Source of the DNA: Euryarchaeota archaeon
GTDB lineage: Archaea > Thermoplasmatota > SW-10-69-26 > JACQPN01
Direction: 5' to 3'
NCBI GenBank assembly: GCA_016207515.1
Contig: JACQPN010000025.1
Location: forward strand, 186,001-250,000
Length of the DNA: 64,000 nt
Part shown: piece by piece, positions 8,910-39,007 of the stretch
How positions within the stretch are numbered: position 1 is the first letter of the stretch
Layout: every line of letters starts with the position of its first letter
Translations under genes and position numbers: made by a program
Notes under the pieces: generated by a model
Seen by the model: only the letters and a program-made list of their open reading frames with translations
What the model was told of the DNA's origin: nothing
Databases searched by the model: none

Positions 8910-9904
8910 TGGCTATCAACGACCAGGAACGGACTTCCCATGTCGACGATGTGTCGACGCCGGCAAAGGACCGATCCCACCGACGCATAGACGTCAAAGA
9001 ATTTGCCCTTGCAGTGGGACGCAGCCCTAGTGAGATTCCGCCTGACGTGGTAGACCTCATCAATGCCACCCCGCTCCTTTACCAGAGACCTGATGAAAGC
9101 CTGCGACACGCCACGATGGATCGCGTGAGAGACGTTCTTCGTAAAGACGCCCTACCGAAGTCGAACGCGAGCCGAAAGGACGATTGGGAACGCGGGTGGG
9201 GCGAAAATCTCCAGGCGTACTCTGGCGGCGACGAAATTGAGAGCGCGCTGAGACCGCGTTATTTCCACCCCACAAACGTAATCCGTTGGCGCGGCGACTA
9301 CGCCGGTGTCCCGGATCCTGATTTCGAAATACGTCTGGTCGCAGCGTTTCGTCGATGGATCTATCATGCATACTTACGCGACGCCTCAAGAGTCTTCGAG
9401 TTCGGATGTGGCACCGGCCGAAACCTCGTTGATCTTGCCAAGGTTTTCCCGGAAAAGGAACTCGTTGGGCTCGATTGGGCCCAATCCGCGGTGAATCTTG
9501 TTAATGCCGTCGGCAAGGCCCAAGGTCTGCACCTCCGTGGTCGTCTCTTCGATTTCTTTGATCCAGACGATACCATCGTGATGGGGAAAGGCACCGCGAT
9601 ATTCACGCTGGCGGCGCTGGAACAAGTGGGAGCCCAGCATCGGAAATTCATCGATTTTCTTATCGGGCATGAACCCGATATCTGCGTCCACCTGGAGCCA
9701 CTGGTCGAACTGTACGAGCCGGATCATTCGTTCGATCAGATGGCCATCAAGTATCACCATATGCGAGGATACCTAGAAGGTTTCCTGCCTGCTATCCGTC
9801 GTCTGGAAAGCCAAGGGCAGGCCGAGATATTGGAAGTGCGCAGGTTCCAATTTGGAAGTCTTTTCCACGAGGCCTACTCTCTGCTCGTTTGGAGACCACG
9901 GTAG
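8909..9904 (+). CDS. SAM-dependent methyltransferase
   Basis: 331 aa, beginning at the ATG that shares its A with the previous stop. A roughly 150-residue N-terminal region with no recognised domain precedes a class I methyltransferase core: motif I VFEFGCGTGRN, the acidic end of strand 2 in VGLDWAQ, and a later FTLAALEQVG. The C-terminal part is Tyr/His rich. It probably methylates a sugar or a glycan intermediate, judged from position in the module. Acceptor unknown. Confidence 0.75.
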   Translation: MAINDQERTSHVDDVSTPAKDRSHRRIDVKEFALAVGRSPSEIPPDVVDLINATPLLYQRPDESLRHATMDRVRDVLRKDALPKSNASRKDDWERGWGENLQAYSGGDEIESALRPRYFHPTNVIRWRGDYAGVPDPDFEIRLVAAFRRWIYHAYLRDASRVFEFGCGTGRNLVDLAKVFPEKELVGLDWAQSAVNLVNAVGKAQGLHLRGRLFDFFDPDDTIVMGKGTAIFTLAALEQVGAQHRKFIDFLIGHEPDICVHLEPLVELYEPDHSFDQMAIKYHHMRGYLEGFLPAIRRLESQGQAEILEVRRFQFGSLFHEAYSLLVWRPR

Positions 9905-10009
9905 TGGGGAACGAGCTTTCTTCATCCGCATTCGGCCCCAGTCAACTTTGGCTTCCGATGACGGCCACGGACGACCCAATTTGATGAGACGATTCACGGG
10001 AGATGTGCT

Positions 10010-10510
10010 ATGGAAGTTGTAAAAACCAAACTGGATGGAGTCCTGATGATCACGCCCCCGACCGTATTCCACGATTTTCGCGGCTCGTATGTGGAAATAT
10101 ACAACGAGCAATTGTATCGACAATTTGGGATCCACGTGAACTTCGTGCAAGACGACATTTCCACTTCCACTCGACATGTGCTTCGAGGATTGCATGGGGA
10201 CAACGAGACCTGGAAGCTTATCAGCTGCCTGTACGGAAAAATCTACCAAGTAGTTACGAATAACGACCCGACCCACCCCCAATACCGCAAATGGGAAGCA
10301 TTCACCCTCTCCGACGAGAACCGATTGCAATTGCTCATTCCGCCAAGATTTGCTAACGGTCACGTTGTCATGAGCGATCGGGCCATATTCCACTACAAGC
10401 AAAACACGTACTACAACAGGAATGGCCAGTTCACCATCAAGTGGAACGACCCGGCGCTGAAAATCTGGTGGCCCGTCAAGGACCCGATTCTCAGCGAGCG
10501 CGATTCCTAG
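10010..10510 (+). CDS. RmlC-like sugar-nucleotide 3,5-epimerase
   Basis: 166 aa cupin protein of the dTDP-4-dehydrorhamnose 3,5-epimerase family. LRGLHGD at 58-64 carries the catalytic His62, Lys69 follows, and the second half has PPRFANGH at 111-118, the Tyr-rich stretch 129-135 and W-N-D-P near 145-148. The variant LRG-L/I-HGD and the ending PILSERD are, as I recall, features of Campylobacter DdahB/MlghB, which epimerise GDP-4-keto-6-deoxy-heptose, rather than of true RmlC (LRGLHYQ). No RmlA, RmlB or RmlD lies nearby, so a dTDP-rhamnose role is unlikely. The DNA of this gene is markedly AT-richer than genes further downstream. Confidence 0.82.
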   Translation: MEVVKTKLDGVLMITPPTVFHDFRGSYVEIYNEQLYRQFGIHVNFVQDDISTSTRHVLRGLHGDNETWKLISCLYGKIYQVVTNNDPTHPQYRKWEAFTLSDENRLQLLIPPRFANGHVVMSDRAIFHYKQNTYYNRNGQFTIKWNDPALKIWWPVKDPILSERDS

Positions 10511-10557
10511 TCTCATGGCGAGGAACACAACATGCCCGCTCGTCTGGATGTAGATTC

Positions 10558-11346
10558 ATGATCTCAAGATCCCTCGGCGCGTCGGTTCTTGGACCGTTGC
10601 GTGCAGTCAAGCGAGAAATCCGCGCTGCGTCGATGAAAGGCAACCGGTTCCGGTGCCCGATATGCCGCGGAAGGTTCCGAAGCTTCCTCCCACAGTACGA
10701 ACGTTTTTCCATCGACGGAGAAGTGGTCTGGGATGGTGTGCACCCCAATTCTGTGTGCCCGCGGTGTTATTCTCTCCCGAGACATCGATTCATGATGCAT
10801 GTCATGGAGAGACGAACCAACCTCATGCAACGCCCCGCCGACGTTCTTCACATTGCGCCCGAGGAAGCATTGGCTCGCGTGCTCAGGGATGTGCACAAAG
10901 GGCGCTACACTGCGGCCGATATTCAGCCGTGGACGCGTGAAATGGTGCAACTTGATATCACCTCGATGCAACTACCCGACCAGTCCCGCGACTTTATCGT
11001 GTGTTCGCACGTACTAGAGCACGTCACGGAGGATATCAAGGCCATGAAAGAGATACGACGGGTCTTGAGGCCTTCTGGCATCGCAGTCGTGGCCGTTCCG
11101 ATTTTTGCGAAGCAGACCATGGACGGTGCCGAACACATGGATCCCAAGGACCGGTTGGCCCAATTTGGCTCCGAGACGCACGTGCGACTTTACGGACCGG
11201 ACATCACGAATCGCCTAGCCCGGGCGGGATTGAGCGTGACCGCCGTCGACGAACGTCTTGAGACCGGAAACTTCAACGACACTGCGGTGCACATCCCTCA
11301 ACGGGAAGCAGAGCGGTTGGTTTTCCTCTGCGCCCGTAACGATTGA
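10558..11346 (+). CDS. zinc-ribbon class I methyltransferase
   Basis: 262 aa from the ATG at 10558; the frame is open upstream but overlaps the epimerase gene. An N-terminal C-P-I-C...C-P-R-C pair (residues about 27-63) makes a zinc ribbon, followed by a degenerate class I methyltransferase core (VLHIAPEE instead of a Gly-rich motif I, then AADIQPW, IVCSHVLEHV and the RRVLRPSG strand). This layout resembles methyltransferases found in lipopolysaccharide clusters. It probably modifies a sugar or glycan end. Specificity unknown. Confidence 0.72.
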   Translation: MISRSLGASVLGPLRAVKREIRAASMKGNRFRCPICRGRFRSFLPQYERFSIDGEVVWDGVHPNSVCPRCYSLPRHRFMMHVMERRTNLMQRPADVLHIAPEEALARVLRDVHKGRYTAADIQPWTREMVQLDITSMQLPDQSRDFIVCSHVLEHVTEDIKAMKEIRRVLRPSGIAVVAVPIFAKQTMDGAEHMDPKDRLAQFGSETHVRLYGPDITNRLARAGLSVTAVDERLETGNFNDTAVHIPQREAERLVFLCARND

Positions 11347-11376
11347 CAAGATTTCTTGTTACCAAGGGTGAGCTCG

Positions 11377-12612
11377 ATGAACGGAACGGGTAGTTTTGCC
11401 GTCTTTTGCGAGGGGTGGCCCCCGTGGGACGGGAGTGGCCTGGCAGGCCATGTTTACGGGCTTCTGTCGGATTTTCCAGAGCGGCCTGAGATCGTTGCAT
11501 GCACGCAGTCGGCCCGCGTCCCGCCTCCGCTGAGACCTTCCGAGTGGCTGAAGGTGTCGCGCGGATATGTGTTCCTGAATCTATCCGGGAATCCCGTGGT
11601 GGCGCCCGTCCACCGATTCCTGAGGCACGTGCAACTCCAGCATAGATTGGCTTATCCGACGCCAAAGGAACTTGCGCATTATCTTCGGCGGATCGGGTCG
11701 CCACGAATTCTCATTTTCATTGATTCCGACCACGATTCGGTAGTGTACGCGTCCCGACTGGTGGAGCGCCTGCCAGAAATCCCATCAACTTTGAGTATGG
11801 GATGCGACGTGCTGTGGTCCACCGCCCTCTACAAGAATCCCTGGACACGGCAGCTGGTTCGAAATTCCTTCTCTTCCCTTGTGAAGAATTCGGCCCTTCG
11901 TTTCACCCAAACCGCAAACCTAGCAAGACACTATTCGAACATTTTCGGCCTTGAATTTGGCGTTTCACCGCACGTGGTTAGGGATAGCACGTTCAATGCC
12001 CTCCAATCGTCGACTCGACTCCCGAACGGCCAAGACCCTCCGAGCGTCTTCCTGTCGGGCAGCATTCATCCATATGATCTCCCAAGCCTCTCGCTCTTGG
12101 CTCGGGCCCTACCCGACGTTGAGAGAAAACTTGGCCCCGTAAGGGTTCGGGTCGCTGGCTTTGCGACCGCGGATCAACTCGTGAGCCTCGGGTTCCGGAA
12201 AGACCGTTTGCAACTACTCGGTTGGATTCCCGACGAGGAGACGCTTCTTCGAGAGGCCGCCAGATCTTCCATTTGCTTCTTACCAACGGAGTTTGATCCG
12301 GGCCACCCGGGGCTTCCGTTCCTTCTTCCGTCTAGGCTCGTTGACTACATAGCCGCCGGAGTCCCTACTGTTGCACACGCACCACGTGGGTCGGCAGTGT
12401 CGACCTATTACCGGGACAATGAGCTTCCGTTCATTTGTACTGGTCTTGAGAACGCAGCGTTGGCATCCATTCTTCTGGACGCCCTGTCGTTGGATACCAA
12501 TGCGCGGACAACCTTGAGCAAGAAGTGCGCAACCTTGGTTCGCGAACGACACTTGGCAAGCAACAACATGGAACGACTTCTTGGACGGGGTTCAAGCGCA
12601 TCAACATCATGA
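11377..12612 (+). CDS. divergent GT4-like glycosyltransferase
   Basis: 411 aa from the ATG at 11377, which has GGTGAG upstream; a TTG at 11356 is possible. The N-terminus has the glycine loop PPWDGSGLAGHVYG. The C-terminal donor domain has SVFLSGSIH, LLGWIPD and SRLVDYIAAGVPTVAHAPRGS, the same signature as the genes at 3 and 935, so it is the third member of that divergent family. It is followed by an ATGA overlap with the next glycosyltransferase gene, which puts it in the operon. Confidence 0.72.
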   Translation: MNGTGSFAVFCEGWPPWDGSGLAGHVYGLLSDFPERPEIVACTQSARVPPPLRPSEWLKVSRGYVFLNLSGNPVVAPVHRFLRHVQLQHRLAYPTPKELAHYLRRIGSPRILIFIDSDHDSVVYASRLVERLPEIPSTLSMGCDVLWSTALYKNPWTRQLVRNSFSSLVKNSALRFTQTANLARHYSNIFGLEFGVSPHVVRDSTFNALQSSTRLPNGQDPPSVFLSGSIHPYDLPSLSLLARALPDVERKLGPVRVRVAGFATADQLVSLGFRKDRLQLLGWIPDEETLLREAARSSICFLPTEFDPGHPGLPFLLPSRLVDYIAAGVPTVAHAPRGSAVSTYYRDNELPFICTGLENAALASILLDALSLDTNARTTLSKKCATLVRERHLASNNMERLLGRGSSASTS

Positions 12613-13652
12613 AGATTGTACTTATCGCCTCGCCAGATCATCGACTACCTCCTATCGGGTACGGGGGGGTCGAACGGTGCGTTTGGTGGCTATTAAGCGG
12701 ACTCCATGCTCGTGGTCACGAGGTCCGCGTGATGGCCGGCAAGGACGCGCAGGCGCCCGTCCCCGTCCACGTCTATCGCCAGGGCAATGCCAACGAAAAC
12801 CCCTTGGTCCGCTGGTCACTGAAGAAATCGTTCAAACGGGCGCTCCGGCACCTTTCCTTGGACGCAGATGTCGTAAATTCACATCATCGCCCCGACTACC
12901 TCGATCCGAAGGCGTTCACTGCCACGCCGACCGCCTTGTCCTTTCACGGACCGCTTGCGAGGGAAGATATTGGCCGCCTTTCCAAGCGGGCGCGTCGGCA
13001 TCTGTGGTTCACCGGCTTGAGCCGGAACCACATCCGGGGTGTGAGCGGGTTCGGGCAATGGCAAGCCATGCCATATGCCGTGGATTCGCGGCTGTACCGA
13101 CCAGCCCATGCAACAGACCAAAGCGCCCACCTTGCCTTCCTTGGGCGCATATGGCGACCAAAGGGCGTCCATACGGCGATCCGAGTCGCCAAAGCGACGG
13201 GTAACAAACTAGTGGTCGCAGGCAACGTCGTGGATCATCCCGATAGCCGGAGCTTGCCCTACTGGGAAAATGAGATCAGACCCCAGATTGACGGGAGACA
13301 AATCGTCTATGTCGGGGAAGTTGACGACGCCAAGAAGAACGAAATCTTATCGGGGGCCAAAGCACTTCTTTTTCCGATTGAATGGGAAGAACCCTTCGGG
13401 CTCGTCATGCTCGAAGCTCTCGCCTGCGGCACGCCCGTAATCGCCTTTCGCCGGGGCGCTGTGCCCGAGGTCATCACGGACGGCGTGGACGGTTTCATCT
13501 GCGATGATTTCGAGGGAATGGTGGAGGCCGTAAAGCGGGTCGAAAGCATCGACCGGCGGGCGTGCCGTCGGACCGTGGAGACGCGGTTCACGGTCGATCA
13601 TATGGTAGACCGCTACGAGGCGCTGTATCGATCCATGCTGGAGGCAAGATGA
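12609..13652 (+). CDS. GT4 family glycosyltransferase
   Basis: 347 aa. The start at 12609 is fixed by the ATGA overlap with the previous stop; the longer open frame upstream is overlap. It begins MKIVLIASPDHRLPP with the acceptor-side loop GYGGVER. The donor domain has LAFLGRIWRPKGVHTAI, the ALLFPIEWEEPFGLVMLEAL segment holding the E-x7-E catalytic motif, and GTPVIAFRRGAVPEV. It is highly similar to the next gene, indicating tandem duplication. A retaining sugar transferase acting on a polyprenyl-linked glycan is the expected role. Confidence 0.85.
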   Translation: MKIVLIASPDHRLPPIGYGGVERCVWWLLSGLHARGHEVRVMAGKDAQAPVPVHVYRQGNANENPLVRWSLKKSFKRALRHLSLDADVVNSHHRPDYLDPKAFTATPTALSFHGPLAREDIGRLSKRARRHLWFTGLSRNHIRGVSGFGQWQAMPYAVDSRLYRPAHATDQSAHLAFLGRIWRPKGVHTAIRVAKATGNKLVVAGNVVDHPDSRSLPYWENEIRPQIDGRQIVYVGEVDDAKKNEILSGAKALLFPIEWEEPFGLVMLEALACGTPVIAFRRGAVPEVITDGVDGFICDDFEGMVEAVKRVESIDRRACRRTVETRFTVDHMVDRYEALYRSMLEAR

Positions 13653-14734
13653 CGAACCTCGAAGTCGCCGCTCCCGTGGCCGCAAAGCGCCTCAAGATCC
13701 TCGTCGTCACATCGAGTCTCATCCCCGTCCCCCCGCCGCGTTACGGCGGAATCGAGCGCGAGGTCGCACAACTTGTGTCGGGACTCCACGCGCGCGGACA
13801 TGATGTCACGCTAATGGCGGGCACCGGCTCGAAAGTCCCGTGTCGCCTCGTTACCTACTCCGAGCAACAGAAGGGATCAAAGGCCCAACGCGCGTGGGCG
13901 AAGGCGGCCTTTTGGGCCCGCCTTGCCGGAATGTTGCCGCACTATGACGTTCTCCACTGGCACGGGCGCGCCGACTACTTCGAACCGGCCGCGTTGAGGC
14001 CACGGATGGCTAAGGTCGTCACGTTCCACAACCCGATAATCGGCAAGGACGTCGAACACTTCCGGCGTCTTGGCGGCCGAAACCTCGCGTTCGTCAGTAT
14101 CAGCGACGCCCAATCGAGACACGTACGGAACGTTGGCCGCTGGATCACGATACACAACGGAATCGAGACGAACGGCGGTTCCGCTACCAAGGACCAGGGG
14201 GGGGCCCAATACCTGCTTTTCCTCGGCAGACTTTCTCGCGACAAGGGAGCGCACACCGCGATCAAGCTGGCCAAGGCCACCGGCGAAAGACTTCTCATCG
14301 TGGGAAAGGCAAATCCGGATCCGCAAAGCGCGGGGTATTTCGAAAGCGAGATCGCGCCTCACCTTAAGGACGGGCAGATTGAGTACTTGGGCGAAGTCGA
14401 CAACGACAGAAAGGAGACCCTACTCGCAAAAGCGAAGGCGCTGCTCTTCCCTATCGAATGGGACGAGCCCTTCGGCCGCGTCGTCGTCGAAGCGCTCGCG
14501 CATGGCACCCCCGTTATCGCCTCCAAACGGGGAGCCGTACCGGAGATAATCACGCACGGCGTGGAGGGATTCATCTGCGAATCGGAGCGCGAGATGGTCC
14601 AAGCCGTGGGAATGATCGACAAGATCGATCGAAGCGCCTGCCGCCACCGGGCTGAAACCGCCTTCTCAGTCGATGCCCTGGTCACAAACTACGAGCGCCT
14701 TTACGCCTCGATGATGGAAAACGGGGGAACTTAG
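13649..14734 (+). CDS. GT4 family glycosyltransferase (tandem paralogue)
   Basis: 361 aa from the ATG at 13649, overlapping the previous stop by ATGA. It shares with the preceding protein the YGGIER acceptor loop, LFLGRLSRDKGAHTAIK, ALLFPIEWDEPFGRV with the E-x7-E motif, and GTPVIASKRGAVPEI, including matching C-terminal ends (RYEALYRSM versus NYERLYASM). The two arose by tandem duplication and probably add related sugars in consecutive steps. No membrane segments. Confidence 0.85.
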   Translation: MTNLEVAAPVAAKRLKILVVTSSLIPVPPPRYGGIEREVAQLVSGLHARGHDVTLMAGTGSKVPCRLVTYSEQQKGSKAQRAWAKAAFWARLAGMLPHYDVLHWHGRADYFEPAALRPRMAKVVTFHNPIIGKDVEHFRRLGGRNLAFVSISDAQSRHVRNVGRWITIHNGIETNGGSATKDQGGAQYLLFLGRLSRDKGAHTAIKLAKATGERLLIVGKANPDPQSAGYFESEIAPHLKDGQIEYLGEVDNDRKETLLAKAKALLFPIEWDEPFGRVVVEALAHGTPVIASKRGAVPEIITHGVEGFICESEREMVQAVGMIDKIDRSACRHRAETAFSVDALVTNYERLYASMMENGGT

Positions 14735-14747
14735 AACGAAGATCCTG

Positions 14748-16106
14748 ATGCTCCCTAGCGACTACTTGCCCCACTCGGTCGGAGGGCGAGAGAACTTTAC
14801 ACATGGCCTCGCCACCAACCTGGTGAAGCGAGGCCACGACGTCCGTGTGGCCTTCCACGTGTGCTACGGGCGACCCGACCCGGGAATCTACGAGATGGAT
14901 GGCGTCCAGGTGCACGCACTTGCATCTCTTCCGGACGTGGAACGGGCTGACGTGTACGCCTGCCGTCCGAAAGCAACCCCCGGTTACGGCGAACTCCTCG
15001 ATTCCTTCCAGCCCGACATCGTGCACCTACACGATTTTGGGTTCAGCGCATCTCTGACGCACATCGAATTGGCGAAGAAGCGGGGCGCCAAGGTCGTCAT
15101 GACCTATCATAGCCCTGGCCAATCGTGTCTTCAACGTAGTCTTCTTCTCCGCGGCAAGACGCCATGCGACGGCGAGATCCTGGAAAAACGATGCACGTCG
15201 TGCAGGCTGGAATCCAATGGGGCGCCGGCGCCGATCGCGCGCCTCGCGAGCGAGGTCGATCTTTCGGGCGTCGCGCGTTTGTTGCCGGGCCAGGCGGGAC
15301 GACTTTTCTCGGCGCGCGAAATGACAAAGAGGTTCGCTTCAGCGTGGCAAGAGATGACGTCATCGATCGATCTCATGCACGTGTACGCCCGCTGGGTCCG
15401 CGATCTGGTGCTGACCAACGGCGTCCCGGAATCCAATGTGTTCCTTACGTCCACGGGCAACCCCTCCGATCCGACCGTTACGCCGGACGAGAGCCTCTGG
15501 CAGAATGGATCGATGGAAAGGGGACTACGCGTCCTTTACATGGGGCGCATTACCAAAGTGAAGGGTGTTGACGTGCTTGTGCGCGCCGTCAAGTCTCTTC
15601 CGAGAGGTCTGGGGATACGAGTCGTAATCGCGGGCGGCGGCTCGCCCGACCAGGATGCAATGCTCGACGCAATGCGCCGACTTGCGGCAGGCGACAAGCG
15701 AATCTTTTTCGCAGGCCCCATGGAGCGCCAAGCTCTCATCGGGATCACGTCGACGGCCGACGTATGCGTCGTCCCGTCCACATGGCTTGAAACGGGCCCA
15801 CTAACCGTCCTTGAGTCGTGGTCCGTGGGCATTCCGGTAATCGGGTCGAGGCTTGGTGGCATCGAAGAACTCGTAAGCGAACGAAACGGCGGCCTCCTCT
15901 TTCCTCCTGGGGACCACGCGGCGCTTGCGAGAATCCTCGACACTCTAGCCACCGACCATGAAGCTTTGGCAGAGCTGAGGGCTACGGTCCCCGCGCCACC
16001 CACTATGGCGCATGTCGCAACCGAGATTGAACGCGCGTACCAACACCTCCTCGGCCAAGAGGCCCCGCGTAGGCGCGAAATCACGCAAGAGGCCGCGACC
16101 GAATGA
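14748..16106 (+). CDS. GT4 family glycosyltransferase
   Basis: 452 aa. The N-terminus MLPSDYLPHSVGGRENF contains the GGRE loop typical of GT4. A Cys-containing insert in the acceptor domain (C-L-Q-R...C-D-G...C-T-S-C, about residues 125-160) is also seen in exopolysaccharide glycosyltransferases and may bind metal. The donor domain shows LYMGRITKVKGVDVLV and VPSTWLETGPLTVLE (E-x7-E region), then GIPVIGSRLGGI. No ATG, GTG or TTG is available upstream in frame. It overlaps the long open frame of the next gene. Confidence 0.84.
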   Translation: MLPSDYLPHSVGGRENFTHGLATNLVKRGHDVRVAFHVCYGRPDPGIYEMDGVQVHALASLPDVERADVYACRPKATPGYGELLDSFQPDIVHLHDFGFSASLTHIELAKKRGAKVVMTYHSPGQSCLQRSLLLRGKTPCDGEILEKRCTSCRLESNGAPAPIARLASEVDLSGVARLLPGQAGRLFSAREMTKRFASAWQEMTSSIDLMHVYARWVRDLVLTNGVPESNVFLTSTGNPSDPTVTPDESLWQNGSMERGLRVLYMGRITKVKGVDVLVRAVKSLPRGLGIRVVIAGGGSPDQDAMLDAMRRLAAGDKRIFFAGPMERQALIGITSTADVCVVPSTWLETGPLTVLESWSVGIPVIGSRLGGIEELVSERNGGLLFPPGDHAALARILDTLATDHEALAELRATVPAPPTMAHVATEIERAYQHLLGQEAPRRREITQEAATE

Positions 16107-16188
16107 CCGCACCGAGGCAAGGGGGTCGTGCGCCGGGGCCGCACTTACGCCACGACGCGTTGAAACGCGCACGATCAGAGGGGCCCCA

Positions 16189-17370
16189 TTGAAGGTGGAG
16201 GCCGCCGGCCCATCGACAGGGCCCGGCATCGAACCCGGAACCGCCAGCGCAAAATGGGATTCTGTGAGAAAGTCGCGGATCGTTCACGTCCTCGGTGCGC
16301 CGAACATCGGCGGTGTTGAGACCCATGCACTGGCAATCATCAAGAACCACGATTCCCGACGAGTGGAACCCCATGTCGTGTTCCTCACCTCCCCGAAGGG
16401 ACGTCTCGAAAGCGATTTCCGCGCTATCGCGCAGGTTCATTTTTGTGAATACCGGCCTGGAAGAAGAGCGTCGTTCATCCTTCGCCTGGCTTATCTCCTC
16501 CTTAGACTCCGGGCCAGTGCGGTACTCTGTCACGCATTCGGCTTGCACGCGCTCGTTTCCGTCGCGGCCCGGATAGCTCTCGTGAGAAAGGTCGTCGTCA
16601 CGATCCAAAACGCCCGACCCGAACGGTCGCGCCTCGTGGTGGCGCGCAAGGCCGCGCGCATCGCACGCGCGTTCGGCGTCGTGGAAGTGGCACCGTCCAT
16701 GCACGTCCGTCGCGAGATCAGGACCCTCTACGGCGCCGGACGCGATGACGCCTTGATCCCCAACGGCCTTGATCTTTTGCCCCGATCGGCTCCAAACGCG
16801 TCACAATCGATAGCTGCTGCCCACCGAGCCGGACCCTTGATAGGGACGATTGCCAGGATGGATCCAATCAAGGATCACGAAAATCTGATTAGGGCCTTTG
16901 CGCACGTGGCAATGGCCGTGCCCACCGCGCGTCTTGTCCTTGTCGGGGACGGGCCCACGCGCACCGAGATCGAGAGGCTTCTCGCTAAATTCGGCCTGCG
17001 AGAGAGCGTCGACCTGCTTGGAGACGTGAGAGATGCGAAGGCACTTCTCCCGCAATGGGACATCTTCGCATTCGCGACCAGTGAGGACGAAGGATTTGGC
17101 GTGGCGATAACCGAAGCCATGGCCGCAGGCCTTCCCATCGTCGCCACGGACATCGGCCCATGCCGCGAAGTCCTTGGTAACGGCGAATGCGGAGTCTTGG
17201 TGCCCCCGCGCGATCCCCAGGCGATGGCCGCGGCCATGATCGCCCTTTGGAAGGATGAGGAACGACGCATGGAATTGGGAAAACGAGCGCGCGAGTTCGC
17301 GTTGGCGAACTACGACGCAAAGATCACGACCCGCAAATACGAGGCCCTGCTTGGCATCAACGGCGCTTGA
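16189..17370 (+). CDS. GT4 family glycosyltransferase
   Basis: The recognisable protein begins at RIVHVLGAPNIGGVETH (about 16279). The frame is open back to 16012, but those codons overlap the previous gene and translate to Arg-rich filler. The TTG at 16189 has an AGAGG at good distance; the GTG at 16264 is an alternative. GT4 features are the GGVE loop, GTIARMDPIKDHENLI, LVGDGP, FAFATSEDEGFGVAITEAM (E-x7-E) and GLPIVATDIGPCREV. It is one of the clearest GT4 members of the locus. Confidence 0.85.
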   Translation: MKVEAAGPSTGPGIEPGTASAKWDSVRKSRIVHVLGAPNIGGVETHALAIIKNHDSRRVEPHVVFLTSPKGRLESDFRAIAQVHFCEYRPGRRASFILRLAYLLLRLRASAVLCHAFGLHALVSVAARIALVRKVVVTIQNARPERSRLVVARKAARIARAFGVVEVAPSMHVRREIRTLYGAGRDDALIPNGLDLLPRSAPNASQSIAAAHRAGPLIGTIARMDPIKDHENLIRAFAHVAMAVPTARLVLVGDGPTRTEIERLLAKFGLRESVDLLGDVRDAKALLPQWDIFAFATSEDEGFGVAITEAMAAGLPIVATDIGPCREVLGNGECGVLVPPRDPQAMAAAMIALWKDEERRMELGKRAREFALANYDAKITTRKYEALLGINGA

Positions 17371-18538
17371 ATCGCGATCAGACGAGACGGCCCCGAAGGC
17401 GTCGCAGGGGCGGGCAATTGCGGTCCTCGGCAATGCTGGCGATCCAGCGGCCTGGAGCGGCATCCCGTACCACTTCTTCAAGGCGGCCCACGAGATTGGC
17501 TTCGCCAGTTCGGCGCTCAACCTCCATCTGGAGCGCGTCAAATGGCGACGATTCGCCTGGAACGCGGGCCGTGTCCTTTCCGGCGACCGACCGGGCGGCT
17601 TCCAATACTCGCCCTCGTGCCTTGAGAAGCTGTATCGGGCCGCCGGCACCCAAATCGAAGGAAACGAATTGGTCAGTCATTTCCAGCTTTTTCCACCGCC
17701 GCGCCTGGCGAAAGACGCCGACGTGCGCTATGGACATTACATCGACATGCCCTTGAAGCCACTGTTCGACGAGTACGGCGAGGGCTCGCGGATCGGCCGA
17801 CGCATCCGACAAGAGGCGCTCGAATCCGAACGCCAAGCCTACTCGGGCGCACATCGTGTCGTTTGCATGTCGCGTTGGGCCGCCGACGCCGTTCGACATG
17901 GCTGTGGCATAGAAGGTGCCAAGGTCAAAGTCGTACTCCCGGGCGCAAATCTGGACGAGAGTGTCGTGGAGCGTCTTACCGCCGGCATCGACGGCTCCCC
18001 GGTCGAGGCCGATCTCGCGAAGCGCCCGTTCCGCCTCGGTTTCACGGGAAAACACCCGGAACGAAAGGGATTGAGGCGACTTGTCGGAGCGGCCGAGCTA
18101 CTGGCCAAACGAGGCCATGGGGTTGAAGTACGCGTCATCGGCGAGGTCCCCGCCGATCTCCGGAAACATCGACTGTTAAGATCTTTTGGCTTCATCGACA
18201 AACGAGGGGAAATGGAACGCTTCGTGCGCGAAGTGTCAGGTTTCGACCTGGGCTGTCTCCCCTCTTACGCGGAGGGCCTCGGCATCTCGACCCTTGAATC
18301 TTTGAGGCTAGGAGTCCCAGTGCTCGGCACGGCCGTAGGTGGGATACCGGACGCGATTCCAGCCGGCGCCGGGATCCTCGTGGAACGAGACGTGACGCCC
18401 GATGGCCTCGCGGATGCCATCGAACCCTTGATCGTGGACGCCTCGAGATATACCCGCATGCGGCAAGAAGCACGCCGTCTCCGACATCACTACGCATGGA
18501 AACGTGCCGCGCAAGAATTCGAAAAGTCGTGGACATAG
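17351..18538 (+). CDS. GT4 family glycosyltransferase
   Basis: The first clearly conserved stretch is AIAVLGNAGDP (about 17411). No ATG or GTG fits; a TTG at 17351 with GAGG just upstream, overlapping the previous gene by 20 bases, is my choice. The acceptor domain contains WSGIPYHFFKA and the donor domain FTGKHPERKGLRRLV, LPSYAEGLGISTLESLRLG (E-x7-E equivalent) and GVPVLGTAVGGIPDAI. It ends just before the polymerase gene, whose start codon overlaps its stop region by two bases plus a spacer. Confidence 0.8.
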   Translation: MASTALESRSDETAPKASQGRAIAVLGNAGDPAAWSGIPYHFFKAAHEIGFASSALNLHLERVKWRRFAWNAGRVLSGDRPGGFQYSPSCLEKLYRAAGTQIEGNELVSHFQLFPPPRLAKDADVRYGHYIDMPLKPLFDEYGEGSRIGRRIRQEALESERQAYSGAHRVVCMSRWAADAVRHGCGIEGAKVKVVLPGANLDESVVERLTAGIDGSPVEADLAKRPFRLGFTGKHPERKGLRRLVGAAELLAKRGHGVEVRVIGEVPADLRKHRLLRSFGFIDKRGEMERFVREVSGFDLGCLPSYAEGLGISTLESLRLGVPVLGTAVGGIPDAIPAGAGILVERDVTPDGLADAIEPLIVDASRYTRMRQEARRLRHHYAWKRAAQEFEKSWT

Positions 18539-18539
18539 T

Positions 18540-19994
18540 ATGAGCGAGGACCAATTGTCAAAAGAGCCGCCGCGCGTCGCCCACGCGCAGTGGGCGCTCT
18601 GCATCCTGATGCTGATACTCGCATCACTTGCACCGACGACGACCGACGTCGAGATGCGGACCGCCGTCACGATTCTGGCCGGCCTATCGATAGCCTTGGT
18701 GATCTCGTGTGGGATCGAGGCGTTACACACGCGTTCCCTCGGAAAAACGCTGCTCATGGCCTCCGTGTTCCTCTTTTTTTGGATTGACGCCCTCACCATG
18801 GCGTATGAGGCGTTGCCTTTCGCCACGCCTCGTGGCGGCCCCACGATCCTCATCGGATCCCAATATCCGGGGACGCTGGTCTCCACGGGCCTTTTCTATG
18901 TGGCCCTTTTCCAGGTCATGCTTCTCGCCGGATACTCTTACCGACCTGACCTTGGTCGCGTTGGTGGATTCGTGCGGGCGCGCGTTGACTCTCTTTCAGA
19001 CAGCAAGCGGAACCTCAAGATTGCGCTGGTGGCGCTTGCGATCCTCCCGTGGCTAGCGGGGTATCGCTTCGATGTGATCGAAGGCGTGACGGACCTGATA
19101 GAATCCCGGAGCCACGACGAGGCGATGGCCCAAGGTGATTGGGGTCGTTACCTGTACCCCTTCGGCATGTTTGGCATGGCGCTCGTGTTCGCCGAAGCGG
19201 TCGTTTCGAAACCTGCGAGGCGCCCACCCTGGTTAGGGCTCGCGGGTCTTGGCATCATGATCGCGATATTCGGTGGGGCAAGGCACATCCTATTGTTTGT
19301 CTTGCTGCCCGCCCTCGCGCTTGGGCTACTGTCGTTTCGGGCCATGACCCGCAAGCGGGCGCTCACAGTCATCGCAGCCGCCGTCGTGGTGCTATTGCTT
19401 TTCCAGGCGCAGTTCGCCTACCGACAATACGGTTGGGACAAGATCGGCACATACGTGCCGAACGAACTGGGGAAGCTTTCAAGCGTGGACCAGTTCAGCG
19501 CGCTCCTCTTCGCCGAGTACCTGGTGCCCAGTCAGCACCCCTATTTCCTCGAACCCACCATCCACTACTTCGCGTTGCATTGGATCCCGAGGATGTTCTG
19601 GGCCGACAAACCAATCGTGGAGACGTGGCAATATTTCAATTCTCAATACACCCAAGGTGATCCAGGCTACAACGTCACACCGTCGATCATAGGCCAGTAC
19701 TACATGAGTTGGGGGATACTGGGAATCGTGTTCATCGCGCTGTGGCTTGGGTTTCTCATGGTATTCGCCGAGCGGTTGCTTCGATCGCTCGACCTCCAAC
19801 GGCAGCGTTGCATGGCGGTCTCGCTCGTCATGCTGATGGCATTCGTGATAGCGTCCTTCCGCCTTTACGCGCCGGTATATTTCGGGTACTTCGCGTACGG
19901 GTTCCTGGCGACGATCCTCCTCACGTACCCCATCCCGACCAGGGCCCCATCGATAAACGCTGCGGTCGGCGCCACCGCTCCCGAAACAACGTGA
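18540..19994 (+). CDS. Wzy-like oligosaccharide repeat-unit polymerase
   Basis: 484 aa from the ATG at 18540; earlier codons overlap the previous gene. An integral membrane protein with about ten or eleven hydrophobic segments and a large loop between the later ones, as in O-antigen polymerases. The segments HWIPRMFWADKP and YNVTPSIIGQYYMSWGILG resemble the conserved loop of the oligosaccharide repeat-unit polymerase family. It would join lipid-linked repeat units on the outer face of the membrane. Its presence argues that the locus makes a repeating polymer. The flippase that should precede it is not in the window. Confidence 0.75.
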   Translation: MSEDQLSKEPPRVAHAQWALCILMLILASLAPTTTDVEMRTAVTILAGLSIALVISCGIEALHTRSLGKTLLMASVFLFFWIDALTMAYEALPFATPRGGPTILIGSQYPGTLVSTGLFYVALFQVMLLAGYSYRPDLGRVGGFVRARVDSLSDSKRNLKIALVALAILPWLAGYRFDVIEGVTDLIESRSHDEAMAQGDWGRYLYPFGMFGMALVFAEAVVSKPARRPPWLGLAGLGIMIAIFGGARHILLFVLLPALALGLLSFRAMTRKRALTVIAAAVVVLLLFQAQFAYRQYGWDKIGTYVPNELGKLSSVDQFSALLFAEYLVPSQHPYFLEPTIHYFALHWIPRMFWADKPIVETWQYFNSQYTQGDPGYNVTPSIIGQYYMSWGILGIVFIALWLGFLMVFAERLLRSLDLQRQRCMAVSLVMLMAFVIASFRLYAPVYFGYFAYGFLATILLTYPIPTRAPSINAAVGATAPETT

Positions 19995-35249: not shown

Positions 35250-37202
35250 ATGGCGGACGATTTGGGACGGAAAGGCGACGAGGCGCGCCTAATTCACGGC
35301 TTGCGGGTGACGCCACGCCGTCGGTTGGCGTTTTTCATCGGGGTGGACGGGATCCTCGTCAGTACCGCGGTCCTCGTCACCTTCCTCCTCCGTTTCCAAG
35401 GCAACTTGGGCACGATCGGCCTCGACCGCGTCGCGATCGTCGCCGGACTCTGCGCGGCCGCGACCGTCTCGACTTTCATTGCATTCGGCCTCTACCGCAT
35501 CAGTTGGGCGTTTTTCGGGCTCCGGGACGCGGTGAAGCTCACCCTGGCGATGCTCGCCGCCACCGCCGTGGTCGCTACCGTCGCCCAGGCTTGGTACGTC
35601 GTAGACCCGGCGACCGCCTTCCCGCGGACCCTAGTCCTGATCCAGGCACCCTTGTCGCTACTTTTCATCGCGTCTTTCCGGCTGGCCAAGCGATTGAGGC
35701 GGATCGTCGTGAGCGGGGCGCTCCAGGAAGGAACGCGCACGTTGATCGTCGGAGCCGGCGAAGCGGGCGTGCAGGTCCTGAAAAGCATCCAGGAATCGAC
35801 GACGCGCACTGATTACCACGTCGTCGGTTTCATTGAGGACGATGCACTCGCCCATTCTACCGCGATCCTCGGCGTCCCCGTCCTTGGACCCACCTCCGCC
35901 CTTGGGCAGAAACTGCGCGAGACGGGCGCCTCGGCAGTCGTCATATGCGTCCCGGACGCAAGCGGGGAGTTCGTCGCAGACGTCGTCGAGACGTGCCGGG
36001 CGAACGGCATCCAAAAGGTGCGCATCGTCCCGACGCTGCGGGAACTCATGGACGACTCGTTCACTATCGAATCCACGAGGGACGTCCGCGTAGAGGATCT
36101 GATAGGCCGGGACCCGGTCAAGATCAACCCGGACGACCTGCACGGTCTCATCGCGGGCAAACGTGTCCTCGTGACGGGCGCGGCCGGGACCATAGGCGCA
36201 GAATTGTGCCGACAAGTGGTGGCCTTCGGCCCCTCGACGATCACCGTCCTGGACACTGACGAGAGCCGGCTCCACGACCTCGGCATGGAGCTTCGGACAA
36301 TCGCGACTACGGTCCGAATACACGAGGCGCTCGTCGACGTACGAAATGCCCGCGCATTGGAAGGCCTTCTACACCGCGAAAGGCCACAACTCGTCTTCCA
36401 TGCGGCCGCCTACAAGCACGTTCCAATGATGGAGGCTTGGCCCATCCAGGCCCTCGACGTGAACGTCCTCGGCACGGCAAACGTCATGTACGCCGCCCAG
36501 GGCGCGGGTTGCGAAAGTTTTGTCCTCATCTCCACCGACAAGGCCGTAGACCCGTCGAGCGTGATGGGCGCGTCGAAGCGCCTCGCCGAACTGGTGGTGT
36601 TCTCCGCAGTCGGAAAGACACAGGGATCGATGAAGAAGGCCGCGGTCCGCTTCGGCAACGTCCTTGGTTCGCGCGGATCCGTACTGACCATATTCGAAAA
36701 ACAGATACAACGGGGAGGGCCCGTGACGGTGACCCATCCGGACGTCGAACGCTATTTCATGGTGACCAGCGAAGCCGTCTCCTTGGTCCTCCAAGCGGCC
36801 GCGATGGGCGACGGAGAGGAACTCTTCGTTCTCGAGATGGGCAAGCCCGTGAGGATACTACGGATCGCGGAAGGTTTCATCCGCCTCCATGGCTTGGAGC
36901 CTGGAAAGGACATCAAGGTCGAATTCACCGGCCTAAGGCCCGGCGAGAGGCTTCAGGAGACTCTTACCTACCCATCGGAACCCTTGTCGGCCACGAAACA
37001 CCCGTTTGTTCTTCGCGCCCGGGCCGAGGCCGCGGCGAACCCGGACGAGATCCTGGAACCAGTCAGGAAGATCGTGCTCGCGGGCGACGAAGAAGCTGCG
37101 CGGTCGTTCCTCCTCTCGCACTTTCCACGCATGGGGCAGGCCGCTTTGGCACCGGCACCATCTGCCGGAGCTCCGACCGCCGATCAACGCCTGACCCGCT
37201 AG
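35250..37202 (+). CDS. membrane nucleotide-sugar 4,6-dehydratase (FlaA1/CapD/WbpM family)
   Basis: 650 aa. Four N-terminal membrane segments (residues about 30-150) precede a CoA-binding-like Rossmann domain (LIVGAGEAGVQVL) and the catalytic SDR domain (VLVTGAAGTIGAEL, near residue 305). The active site has the Ser-Met-Lys form seen in WbpM/PglF (STDKAVDPSSVMGASKR) instead of Ser-Tyr-Lys, followed by RFGNVLGSRGSV. It probably converts UDP-GlcNAc to the 4-keto-6-deoxy sugar for the first sugar of the repeat. It has its own TATA box at 35187. This is the end of the long co-directional run; the next recognisable sequence, an aIF1A remnant, lies on the opposite strand. Confidence 0.9.
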   Translation: MADDLGRKGDEARLIHGLRVTPRRRLAFFIGVDGILVSTAVLVTFLLRFQGNLGTIGLDRVAIVAGLCAAATVSTFIAFGLYRISWAFFGLRDAVKLTLAMLAATAVVATVAQAWYVVDPATAFPRTLVLIQAPLSLLFIASFRLAKRLRRIVVSGALQEGTRTLIVGAGEAGVQVLKSIQESTTRTDYHVVGFIEDDALAHSTAILGVPVLGPTSALGQKLRETGASAVVICVPDASGEFVADVVETCRANGIQKVRIVPTLRELMDDSFTIESTRDVRVEDLIGRDPVKINPDDLHGLIAGKRVLVTGAAGTIGAELCRQVVAFGPSTITVLDTDESRLHDLGMELRTIATTVRIHEALVDVRNARALEGLLHRERPQLVFHAAAYKHVPMMEAWPIQALDVNVLGTANVMYAAQGAGCESFVLISTDKAVDPSSVMGASKRLAELVVFSAVGKTQGSMKKAAVRFGNVLGSRGSVLTIFEKQIQRGGPVTVTHPDVERYFMVTSEAVSLVLQAAAMGDGEELFVLEMGKPVRILRIAEGFIRLHGLEPGKDIKVEFTGLRPGERLQETLTYPSEPLSATKHPFVLRARAEAAANPDEILEPVRKIVLAGDEEAARSFLLSHFPRMGQAALAPAPSAGAPTADQRLTR

Positions 37203-37219: not shown

Positions 37220-37501
37220 CTAAAAAAATACACGCGTCTGCTTCGGTTTCATCCCTTTCCTCGAAAGGCAAAGCCCTTGCCCTTCGTGTATCTCCACACG
37301 ATTTCGGCCTTCTCATCCTGGATCGCCCGCGGCTTCACGATGACGAGATCGACATCGCCTTTCCACATCCGGCGCTTCAGCGTTTCCTGGCTTTCGGCAC
37401 CTCCGAACCTTCCGGCCCTCCCGTATGATCGTCAGTTCGGATTATGCGACATGATGCGCCGCGATGCCGAACAGCGGCCTTTTCTCCTGACCGTGCCACA
37501 T
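37220..37501 (-). pseudogene. degenerate second copy of translation initiation factor aIF1A
   Basis: Reading the minus strand, three frames in turn match the intact aIF1A encoded at 38258-38674. From an ATG at 37501 the first frame gives LFGIA, then an in-frame TAA, then a stretch aligned without gaps ending in C-R-K-P-G. One extra base moves to a second frame with LKRRMW, DLVIVKP, QDEKAEIVWRYTK. One missing base moves to a third frame with RKGMKPKQ and a TAG at 37220. The intact protein has KRRMW, DLVIVKP, QDEKADIVWRYTK and RKGMIPKQ at the same places. The part equivalent to the intact protein's first residues is absent. One stop and two frameshifts indicate a decayed duplicate. Confidence 0.85.
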
Positions 37502-37513
37502 CGAAAACCAAAC

Positions 37514-37523
37514 ACATAAATAC
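37514..37523 (+). promoter_or_regulatory. TATA box of vapBC-1
   Basis: ACATAAATAC is centred 28 bases upstream of the ATG at 37547, which predicts a leaderless or nearly leaderless transcript. It lies just upstream of the aIF1A remnant, where the missing N-terminal part of that copy should be. Confidence 0.55.
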
Positions 37524-37546
37524 TAAAACGTTACCTACTGTTACCT

Positions 37547-37783
37547 ATGGCCCGCACAACGACCCTTAGCGACGACGCCTTCGCCATGCTTCGGCGCGAA
37601 AAAAGGGAGGGCGAGAGCGACAGCGACGTAGTGATCCGTCTTGTCCAGGCACTCCATTGGGAAAAAGACCCGATGAAATTCCTCGATACCCCTATCGAAT
37701 TCGACATGTCCCGCGAGGAGCATCTCGAGTTCATCCGAAAGATGAGGCAAGCGGATTCCGTCGATGGCGAGAAGGAGGAGTGA
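37547..37783 (+). CDS. vapB: VapB-type antitoxin
   Basis: 78 aa. The start TTTLSDDAFAMLRREKREGESDSDVVIRLV matches the archaeal VapB family (DUF217-like), whose N-terminus forms a ribbon-helix-helix DNA-binding and dimer region; the acidic C-terminal tail should neutralise the toxin. It is followed 3 bases later by the PIN-domain toxin. Such antitoxins normally repress their own promoter, here the TATA at 37514. Confidence 0.85.
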   Translation: MARTTTLSDDAFAMLRREKREGESDSDVVIRLVQALHWEKDPMKFLDTPIEFDMSREEHLEFIRKMRQADSVDGEKEE

Positions 37784-37786
37784 GAC

Positions 37787-38200
37787 GTGCCGGTCCTCGA
37801 CGCGACTTTCCTCATCGATTCCAAGCACAGGCCCGCATCCATCCGGCCCGCCCTGGCGCGCCTTCGCCAGTTGCCAGGCCCAATCTTCGTCCCCATGCAG
37901 GCGGCGATCGAGTATTGCGTCGGAGCGAGCGACGCCAACGCGGCGATCACAGACCTCGCGCTCTTTTTCGAACTCGTTCCCTGCGACACGCAGATTGTAC
38001 GCGAGGCCGCCAGCGTGGCAAGGGAGGCGCGAGAGCGCGGAAAAAACCTTTCCTGGTCGGACCTTCAGGTCGCAGCAACCGCCCGCTACTTCGGGACCTT
38101 CGTCGTAAGCACCGACAGGCGGGCATTCGGCCCGGATTCGGTGGTTCCCGCGTGGGACTATGAACGCGAAAAGGATCTGCCCGGAACCCACGAATCGTGA
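37787..38200 (+). CDS. vapC: VapC-type PIN-domain ribonuclease toxin
   Basis: 137 aa, GTG start with GGAGGAGTG directly upstream. PIN-domain acidic residues are in place: Asp5 in VLDATFLID, Glu near residue 42 (AAIEYCVG), Asp in LSWSDLQVAATA (about 94) and Asp in VSTDRRAFG (about 112). These bind Mg for RNA cleavage. It pairs with the antitoxin gene just before it. The module lies between the aIF1A remnant and the intact aIF1A gene and is transcribed against both. Confidence 0.88.
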   Translation: MPVLDATFLIDSKHRPASIRPALARLRQLPGPIFVPMQAAIEYCVGASDANAAITDLALFFELVPCDTQIVREAASVAREARERGKNLSWSDLQVAATARYFGTFVVSTDRRAFGPDSVVPAWDYEREKDLPGTHES

Positions 38201-38257: not shown

Positions 38258-38674
38258 CTAGAAAACATCAATCTGCTTCGGAATCATCCCTTTCCTCGAG
38301 AGGTACGCGCCCTGCGTCTTCGTGTACCTCCAGACGATGTCGGCCTTTTCGTCCTGGAAAGACCACGGCTTCACGATGACGAGGTCGCCTTCGCGTATCC
38401 ACATGCGCCGCTTCATCTTGCCCGGTATGCGGCACATGCGGGCCTTCCCGTCCTCGCACATGACCTTGAGGCGTGACCCGCCGAGCAGCTGATCCGCGAT
38501 CCCGAAAAGTTGTCCCTGTTTCTTGTCCGGCATCTTGACGCGGATGTAGCCTCCTTCGGAGGCCAATCCATCTTTGTCGAATTCGGCGAGCTGTTGTTCC
38601 GAGAGTTCTGGTTCCTCTGGTTCCGCCGGGGCGCCCGTGCCTTCCTCCCCTTCCTTTTCGTCGTCGCCAGCCAA
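38258..38674 (-). CDS. eif1a: translation initiation factor aIF1A
   Basis: 138 aa, TTG start at 38674; a TATA box at 38702-38712 is placed for a very short leader. An acidic, disordered N-terminal extension of about 40 residues (Glu/Pro rich) precedes the S1-like OB fold: YIRVKMPDK, LFGIADQLLGG, CRIPGKMKRRMW, DLVIVKPWSFQ, DIVWRYTK. It binds the 30S A-site and helps start-codon selection. The core is standard; the acidic extension is longer than in many archaea. A degraded paralogue lies about 750 bases away. Confidence 0.95.
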   Translation of the reverse strand: MAGDDEKEGEEGTGAPAEPEEPELSEQQLAEFDKDGLASEGGYIRVKMPDKKQGQLFGIADQLLGGSRLKVMCEDGKARMCRIPGKMKRRMWIREGDLVIVKPWSFQDEKADIVWRYTKTQGAYLSRKGMIPKQIDVF

Positions 38675-39007
38675 GTTGTCGGGCTGCCAATGTGGACAGC
38701 CGTATTTATATGCTGTCAGGTAGGGGAACGCCTATCGCCCGGCCTGCCACGAAGGGCCAGCGCCATCGATTTTCTCGGTCGTCGGCCGGCGTCGCCATGC
38801 GGATCGTGCCAGAACGACCATTTTCGACCACGGTCAAGCACGGTGAGCGGCTTGGCCGAGCAATCTTCACCCACGGTTTCGCGGCCACGTGCCGGGGCCG
38901 CTAGAGCGCCACACCGCAGACTTTTGAGCAACTCGTCACGCGCACGTCGCGGCCAAAGAAAGCGCTCGCCTAAGAGCGCCGTCCATGCGGCGAATAGGCA
39001 CACGCCA
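38675..39007. other. 333-base gap between aIF1A and the winged-helix gene
   Basis: The aIF1A end of this gap holds its promoter. The remaining roughly 290 bases show no coding sequence or RNA gene that I can recognise on either strand; the open frames there are short and Arg-rich. Confidence 0.5.
38702..38712 (-). promoter_or_regulatory. TATA box of aIF1A
   Basis: On the minus strand CATATAAATAC is centred 32 bases upstream of the TTG start at 38674, so transcription should begin a few bases before the start codon. This placement supports the TTG as the true start. Confidence 0.65.

Follow-up and report, generated by a model that had tools for sequence, protein, structure and literature searches.

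The intact aIF1A gene of this archaeon lies in a 64,000-nucleotide stretch of DNA (the window, positions 186001-250000 of contig C25) from a genome of 2.67 Mb in 25 contigs (G000, 98% complete). A second, truncated sequence resembling the 3' end of the same gene (the relic) is found nearby on the same strand, and a vapBC toxin-antitoxin pair (37547-38200) occupies the space between the two. The features of the locus, in window coordinates, are:

35250-37202, plus strand: polysaccharide biosynthesis epimerase (PF02719), the native downstream neighbour, in convergent orientation
37220-37508, minus strand: relic of aIF1A
37515-37522, plus strand: TATA-like CATAAATA upstream of vapB, approximately 7 bp away from where the relic is cut off; putative function, from its position
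37530-37547, plus strand: two direct GTTACCTA repeats immediately before the vapB start, as read from the sequence
37547-37783, plus strand: vapB antitoxin, 78 aa (VAPB_antitox PF02697, 32.5 bits, cut-off 27.9)
37787-38200, plus strand: vapC toxin, 137 aa (PIN PF01850, 32.8 bits, cut-off 23.6)
38258-38674, minus strand: intact aIF1A, 138 aa, TTG start (eIF-1a PF01176, 85.4 bits)
38703-38710, minus strand: TATA-like TATAAATA upstream of aIF1A, with a putative function

The two genes of the toxin-antitoxin pair are separated by 3 bp, look intact, and are predicted to be active, and the GTTACCTA repeats in front of them are a possible operator of vapB. The vapC stop lies 57 bp from the aIF1A stop, and the epimerase stop 18 bp from that of the relic. 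The relic has no counterpart of the TATA-like TATAAATA. Homologs of this VapC were detected in 5 of 292 genomes of the phylum, this genome included; in one of the same order (G004), the VapC homolog and aIF1A are on different contigs. Taken together, the locus suggests that vapBC and the relic derive from one event. As a separate observation (38258-38710), aIF1A seems to start at a TTG approximately 30 bp downstream of its TATA-like box, and the acidic N-terminus is longer than in relatives; initiation at another TTG in the same frame, at codon 37, would yield the usual length.

Extent, kinship, and decay of the relic

The earlier note on this DNA described a minus-strand relic in three frames, carrying one stop and two single-base frameshifts, and this is what frame-by-frame translation and DNA alignment show. 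A gap-poor match in three successive frames links the relic to aIF1A from approximately codon 48-51 through the stop, whereby the frame segments QEKRPLFGIAAHHVA-stop-SELTIIREGRKVRRCRKPG, LKRRMWKGDVDLVIVKPRAIQDEKAEIVWRYTK, and LSRKGMKPKQTRVFF correspond to aIF1A residues 51-138, and the disabling changes are one in-frame TAA, one +1 frameshift, and one -1 frameshift. Homology extends to approximately 37508 (codon 48) once one more 1-nt gap is allowed, and no similarity to codons 1 to ~48 is left beside vapBC. When the reverse complement of the relic was aligned with the gene, the local DNA score was 222, compared with a mean of 22.9 (s.d. 2.9, maximum 38) for 1000 dinucleotide shuffles, and chance similarity was rejected on these grounds. 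Over 82 comparable codons, the two are 72% identical in DNA and 60% in amino acids. In a tblastn search of the whole genome, aIF1A matched at the gene itself (E 1.8e-91), at the relic (E 2.6e-11), and nowhere else. The read-through piece of the relic reaches 19.6 bits with Pfam eIF-1a, below the cut-off of 30.2, which bears out the remark that it is invisible to gene calling.

In a DNA tree of 41 sequences, the relic and the aIF1A of its own genome form one clade (support 99/99), with a long branch for the relic (0.40) and a short one for the gene (0.029). The relatives of aIF1A are Thermoplasmatota, represented mainly by metagenome genomes, and the nearest comparison genomes belong to the same order, none of them to the same genus. 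Given the clade of relic and gene, an ancient or foreign paralog was rejected as the source of the relic. At sites where three same-order relatives agree, changes private to the relic number 11/66, 15/71, and 11/49 at first, second, and third codon positions, while those private to the intact gene number 0, 0, and 4. The relic pattern is uniform over codon positions (P = 0.76) and differs from that of a constrained gene (P = 2e-5), and a functional phase is compatible with up to approximately 70% of the relic branch. A functional second aIF1A was rejected on account of the stop, the frameshifts, and this flat pattern. These results support a neutrally decaying 3' fragment and no proven second gene. 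The claim of a decayed second copy is partly supported: the relic is a decayed aIF1A copy of the same lineage, but a former complete second gene, of which codons 1-48 would have been lost, is a less likely origin.

The statement that aIF1A is normally single-copy is broadly borne out. A match was found in 366 of 389 Thermoplasmatota genomes, and nine besides this one have two matches, in different places, with one of the second matches being partial. None of the nine is from the order of this genome. In Haloferax volcanii, two aIF1A paralogs are present, and deletion of both was impossible (PMC8576121).

The same anatomy at other genes

The arrangement seen at aIF1A, an intact gene followed by inserted genes and then by a second, truncated version of its own 3' end on the same strand, recurs in this genome at atpA (twice) and at genes for a Cys/Met PLP enzyme, serS, a pilin, and a MATE transporter. 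These sister cases come from a survey of local repeats over ~1.25 Mb of the genome (~47%), from which tandem paralogs and minisatellites were removed before listing. The survey was partly picked around PIN genes, so we make no claim that toxin-antitoxin pairs are enriched among the inserts; genes were called as the longest ORF, which makes counts of 5'-end versus 3'-end copies rough. The duplicated stretches measure 85-295 bp.

At atpA (A-type ATP synthase subunit A), the gene is followed by a HepT and an AbrB-nucleotidyltransferase protein and then by a 295-bp atpA tail. Past this tail lie a TPR protein, a nucleotidyltransferase and HEPN pair, and a second atpA tail with an in-frame TAG, and beyond these are PIN genes and the next ATP synthase gene. 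Several toxin-antitoxin pairs (HepT/nucleotidyltransferase, HEPN/nucleotidyltransferase, and PIN genes) and two displaced atpA 3' ends are thereby stacked between two ATP synthase subunit genes (L199, G000:C12:100000-119999, positions 13820-19942, continuing into L080). The insert consists of HEPN and nucleotidyltransferase genes at the Cys/Met PLP enzyme locus, a weakly BNR-like protein at serS, a winged-helix protein and an unknown one at the pilin locus, and a Kelch protein with a sub-threshold GIY-YIG-like protein at the MATE transporter locus. A comparable case was found in a relative (G006), where a vapBC pair separates intact ridA from a 166-bp repeat of its 3' end, which carries a frameshift and is 90% identical; this 3'-end sequence is absent elsewhere in G006, and genome G005 has one copy.

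For 16 other PIN genes of this genome, comparison of the two flanks revealed no gene-insert-tail structure directly around the gene. Local repeats around PIN genes were no commoner than at random positions, and the idea that PIN genes are generally associated with flanking repeats was rejected for that reason. In 398 kb of G004, no clear case was found. Repeats on contig C57 of G006 (L137, L180) were set aside as a multi-copy low-complexity family, and four further candidates (L119, L251, L188, L206) as tandem paralogs or ambiguous.

The survey yielded several additional observations. Over the first 855 kb (L186-L225 and the window), repeats of at least 50 nt within 8 kb were all direct, with 0 inverted. 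A mirror-image candidate (L231, G000:C25:100000-119999, positions 10662-10748 and 12409-12575) involves a Methyltransf_28 gene whose 5' end has a second copy upstream, with a DUF2204 nucleotidyltransferase and a partner gene as the insert. In L210 (G000:C22:80000-99999, positions 13365-13496 and 16703-16769), a 3.2-kb island is bordered by the 3' end of a tRNA-Met gene and a perfect direct repeat of 47 bp. The island encodes an HNH protein and a pair that looks RelE-like but has no Pfam match, and the repeat is likely a classical tRNA attachment site. At least five paralogous proteins of ~400 aa are encoded in tandem in L188 (G000:C2:40000-59999, positions 9389-17767), with patchy 80-92% DNA identity, as if under gene conversion. 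Two adjacent paralogous genes in the window (12525-14734) are 43% identical in amino acids and contain a common 149-nt stretch with a DNA identity of 76%. In the same-order relative G004, a vapC lies between two similar small secreted-looking genes with no Pfam match (L119, G004:C38, positions 1005-2365).

Boundaries and divergence of the tails

The resemblance of tail to gene breaks off at +2, 0, -2, +2, -15, and -10 nt relative to the ORF end, and at -49 nt for serS. Of the seven sister copies (the six of this genome and ridA of G006, without aIF1A), six thus lose similarity no more than 15 nt from the stop codon. Such endings would follow if the DNA downstream of the two tails is unrelated; under target duplication, they would be coincidental. 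Pooled over the seven copies, differences number 21, 17, and 68 at first, second, and third codon positions. A neutral relic beside a constrained gene would place at most about half of the differences at third positions, and the observed number exceeds this maximum for in-genome duplication (P = 0.0023). From this excess, it appears that the sister gene ends had already diverged as functional sequences when they were brought together, one of them probably being foreign.

At aIF1A itself, the differences from the relic (16/16/37 over 82 codons) show no such excess, with 37 of 69 at third positions (P = 0.32), and a foreign tail is hence suggested there by analogy only. Moreover, a weak match between aIF1A and the relic runs approximately 30 nt beyond the stop (P = 0.005), for which plain duplication would account and which counts against a single crossover. 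The two atpA tails add a further complication, as the distal one resembles the gene more closely (94%) than the proximal one does (86%), a pattern not predicted by simple stepwise insertion.

Origin of the relic

Most likely, vapBC was inserted with the 3' end of aIF1A as its anchor and left the relic as a scar, one of several similar scars in this genome. What we observe is the anatomy and its return at other genes with other inserts, together with the neutral decay of the relic and a kinship that links its sequence exclusively to the gene. As the source of the relic, a displaced 3' end is more plausible than a duplicate gene that failed, given the abrupt start of the relic at the edge of vapBC, its flat codon-position pattern, and an anatomy that recurs at unrelated genes. 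As for the route, we lean slightly towards a one-sided, homology-anchored insertion, namely a single crossover of circularised foreign DNA that carried a gene end together with cargo. The donor would have been DNA from a related archaeon with an aIF1A 3' end and a downstream vapBC pair, the ends of which were joined into a circle. One recombination between this circle and the resident aIF1A 3' end would then have produced, in order, a full-length and possibly hybrid aIF1A, vapBC, and the displaced native 3' end, cut off where the circle had been closed. Having neither promoter nor start, the displaced end would have drifted neutrally and acquired the stop and the two frameshifts. We infer both the foreign origin of the 3' end of the intact gene and the choice of a single crossover over other one-sided routes.

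The same geometry would arise if the vapBC cassette had been inserted with a long target duplication, so that the aIF1A 3' end was copied on both sides and the copy without a 5' end decayed. Restriction-modification (RM) units are reported with duplications of the order of 100 bp (PMC3874152), the codon-position differences at aIF1A fit a neutral duplicate beside a constrained gene, and the weak match passes the stop codon. However, similarity ends near the stop in most sister cases, their third-position differences lie above the level of a simple duplicate, and the cargo includes genes other than toxin-antitoxin genes, so no shared element is seen. Because of the first two of these points, a single crossover is preferred, and long target duplication seems to us rather unlikely. 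It is also improbable, to a greater degree, that aIF1A was duplicated in full and in tandem, as an extension of the earlier note's view would have it, with one copy decaying and vapBC landing between the two and removing the 5' half. The sister relationship of relic and gene, the room for a functional phase on the relic branch, and the tandem paralogs common in this genome are in its favor, but codons 1-48 are without trace, several independent events would be needed, and the repeated 3'-end pattern at other genes would be left unexplained.

Archaeal elements are known from 3'-distal regions of protein genes (PMC6563490), and a larger element might have integrated site-specifically at the aIF1A 3' end, in the manner of integrases that target tRNA genes and certain protein genes, before shrinking to vapBC. 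We nonetheless deem this very improbable: no integrase was found among the insert proteins scanned at the aIF1A locus and sister loci, several unrelated genes were targeted, the duplicated stretches are long in comparison with short attachment sites, and the copies are not near-identical cores. An assembly artefact or a strain-variant chimera in a metagenome-derived contig would be conceivable in view of near relatives that are themselves metagenome assemblies. Its probability is close to negligible, however, since a divergence of 28%, together with a stop and two frameshifts, is the mark of old sequence, the repeated cases agree in orientation and gene-end position, and the genome is in 25 contigs at 98% completeness.

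Extending insertion by single crossover beyond this locus, we propose tentatively, at somewhat less than even confidence, that toxin-antitoxin pairs and other small gene sets spread in this archaeal lineage without transposase or integrase, using the homologous 3' ends of conserved genes. Each insertion would restore the gene and displace its old tail, and cassettes would stack behind essential genes, as at atpA. Once an old tail has decayed, recombination could not undo the insertion, so that cassettes would pile up at such places. A decayed gene tail is a scar from which one can read that an insertion took place, on which side and in which gene, and possibly from which donor, and it therefore bears on how toxin-antitoxin pairs without a mobility gene move. 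The search for such scars is simple enough for all prokaryote genomes. If the proposal is true, conserved genes such as atpA, serS, and aIF1A can have mosaic 3' ends, a point of relevance to phylogenies based on them.

Comparison with known systems

In the literature searched, we found no paper joining toxin-antitoxin systems with homology-facilitated illegitimate recombination, which is no proof of newness. The insert at aIF1A resembles other vapBC pairs in being a VAPB_antitox/PIN unit of ordinary size and order, and is unusual only in its position between a gene and that gene's displaced tail. In Thaumarchaeota, integrated elements can occupy the 3' ends of protein genes through short sites (PMC6563490); there too insertion is at the 3' end and the gene stays whole, but those elements use integrases or casposases, neither of which was seen in the inserts here, which follow different genes. 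RM units are reported to insert with long target duplications (reviewed in PMC3874152) and are likewise selfish two-gene units flanked by direct target copies of the order of 100 bp. Here, in contrast, the insert is vapBC, and the sister copies end near the stop and look pre-diverged, not freshly duplicated.

For the effector-immunity arrays of the Vibrio cholerae type VI secretion system (T6SS), stepwise displacement by one-sided homology has been proposed (PMC5361080). As in the route proposed for our cases, a module anchors on an upstream homologous stretch and old 3' material is pushed downstream, although the anchor there is the variable effector itself, whereas here conserved housekeeping genes would serve as anchors and unrelated cassettes as cargo. 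In Escherichia coli, fragments with a lacZ end and a marker mostly gave single crossovers of recircularised molecules, resulting in partial lacZ duplications of 109-950 bp (PMC3240628). Likewise, in the route proposed here, a gene end and cargo would enter by homology and leave a partial duplicate of the gene end beyond the cargo. The lacZ events were made in the laboratory with a marker, while cases of the aIF1A type are natural, old, and decayed, involve several archaeal genes, and carry toxin-antitoxin pairs and other small gene sets as their cargo.
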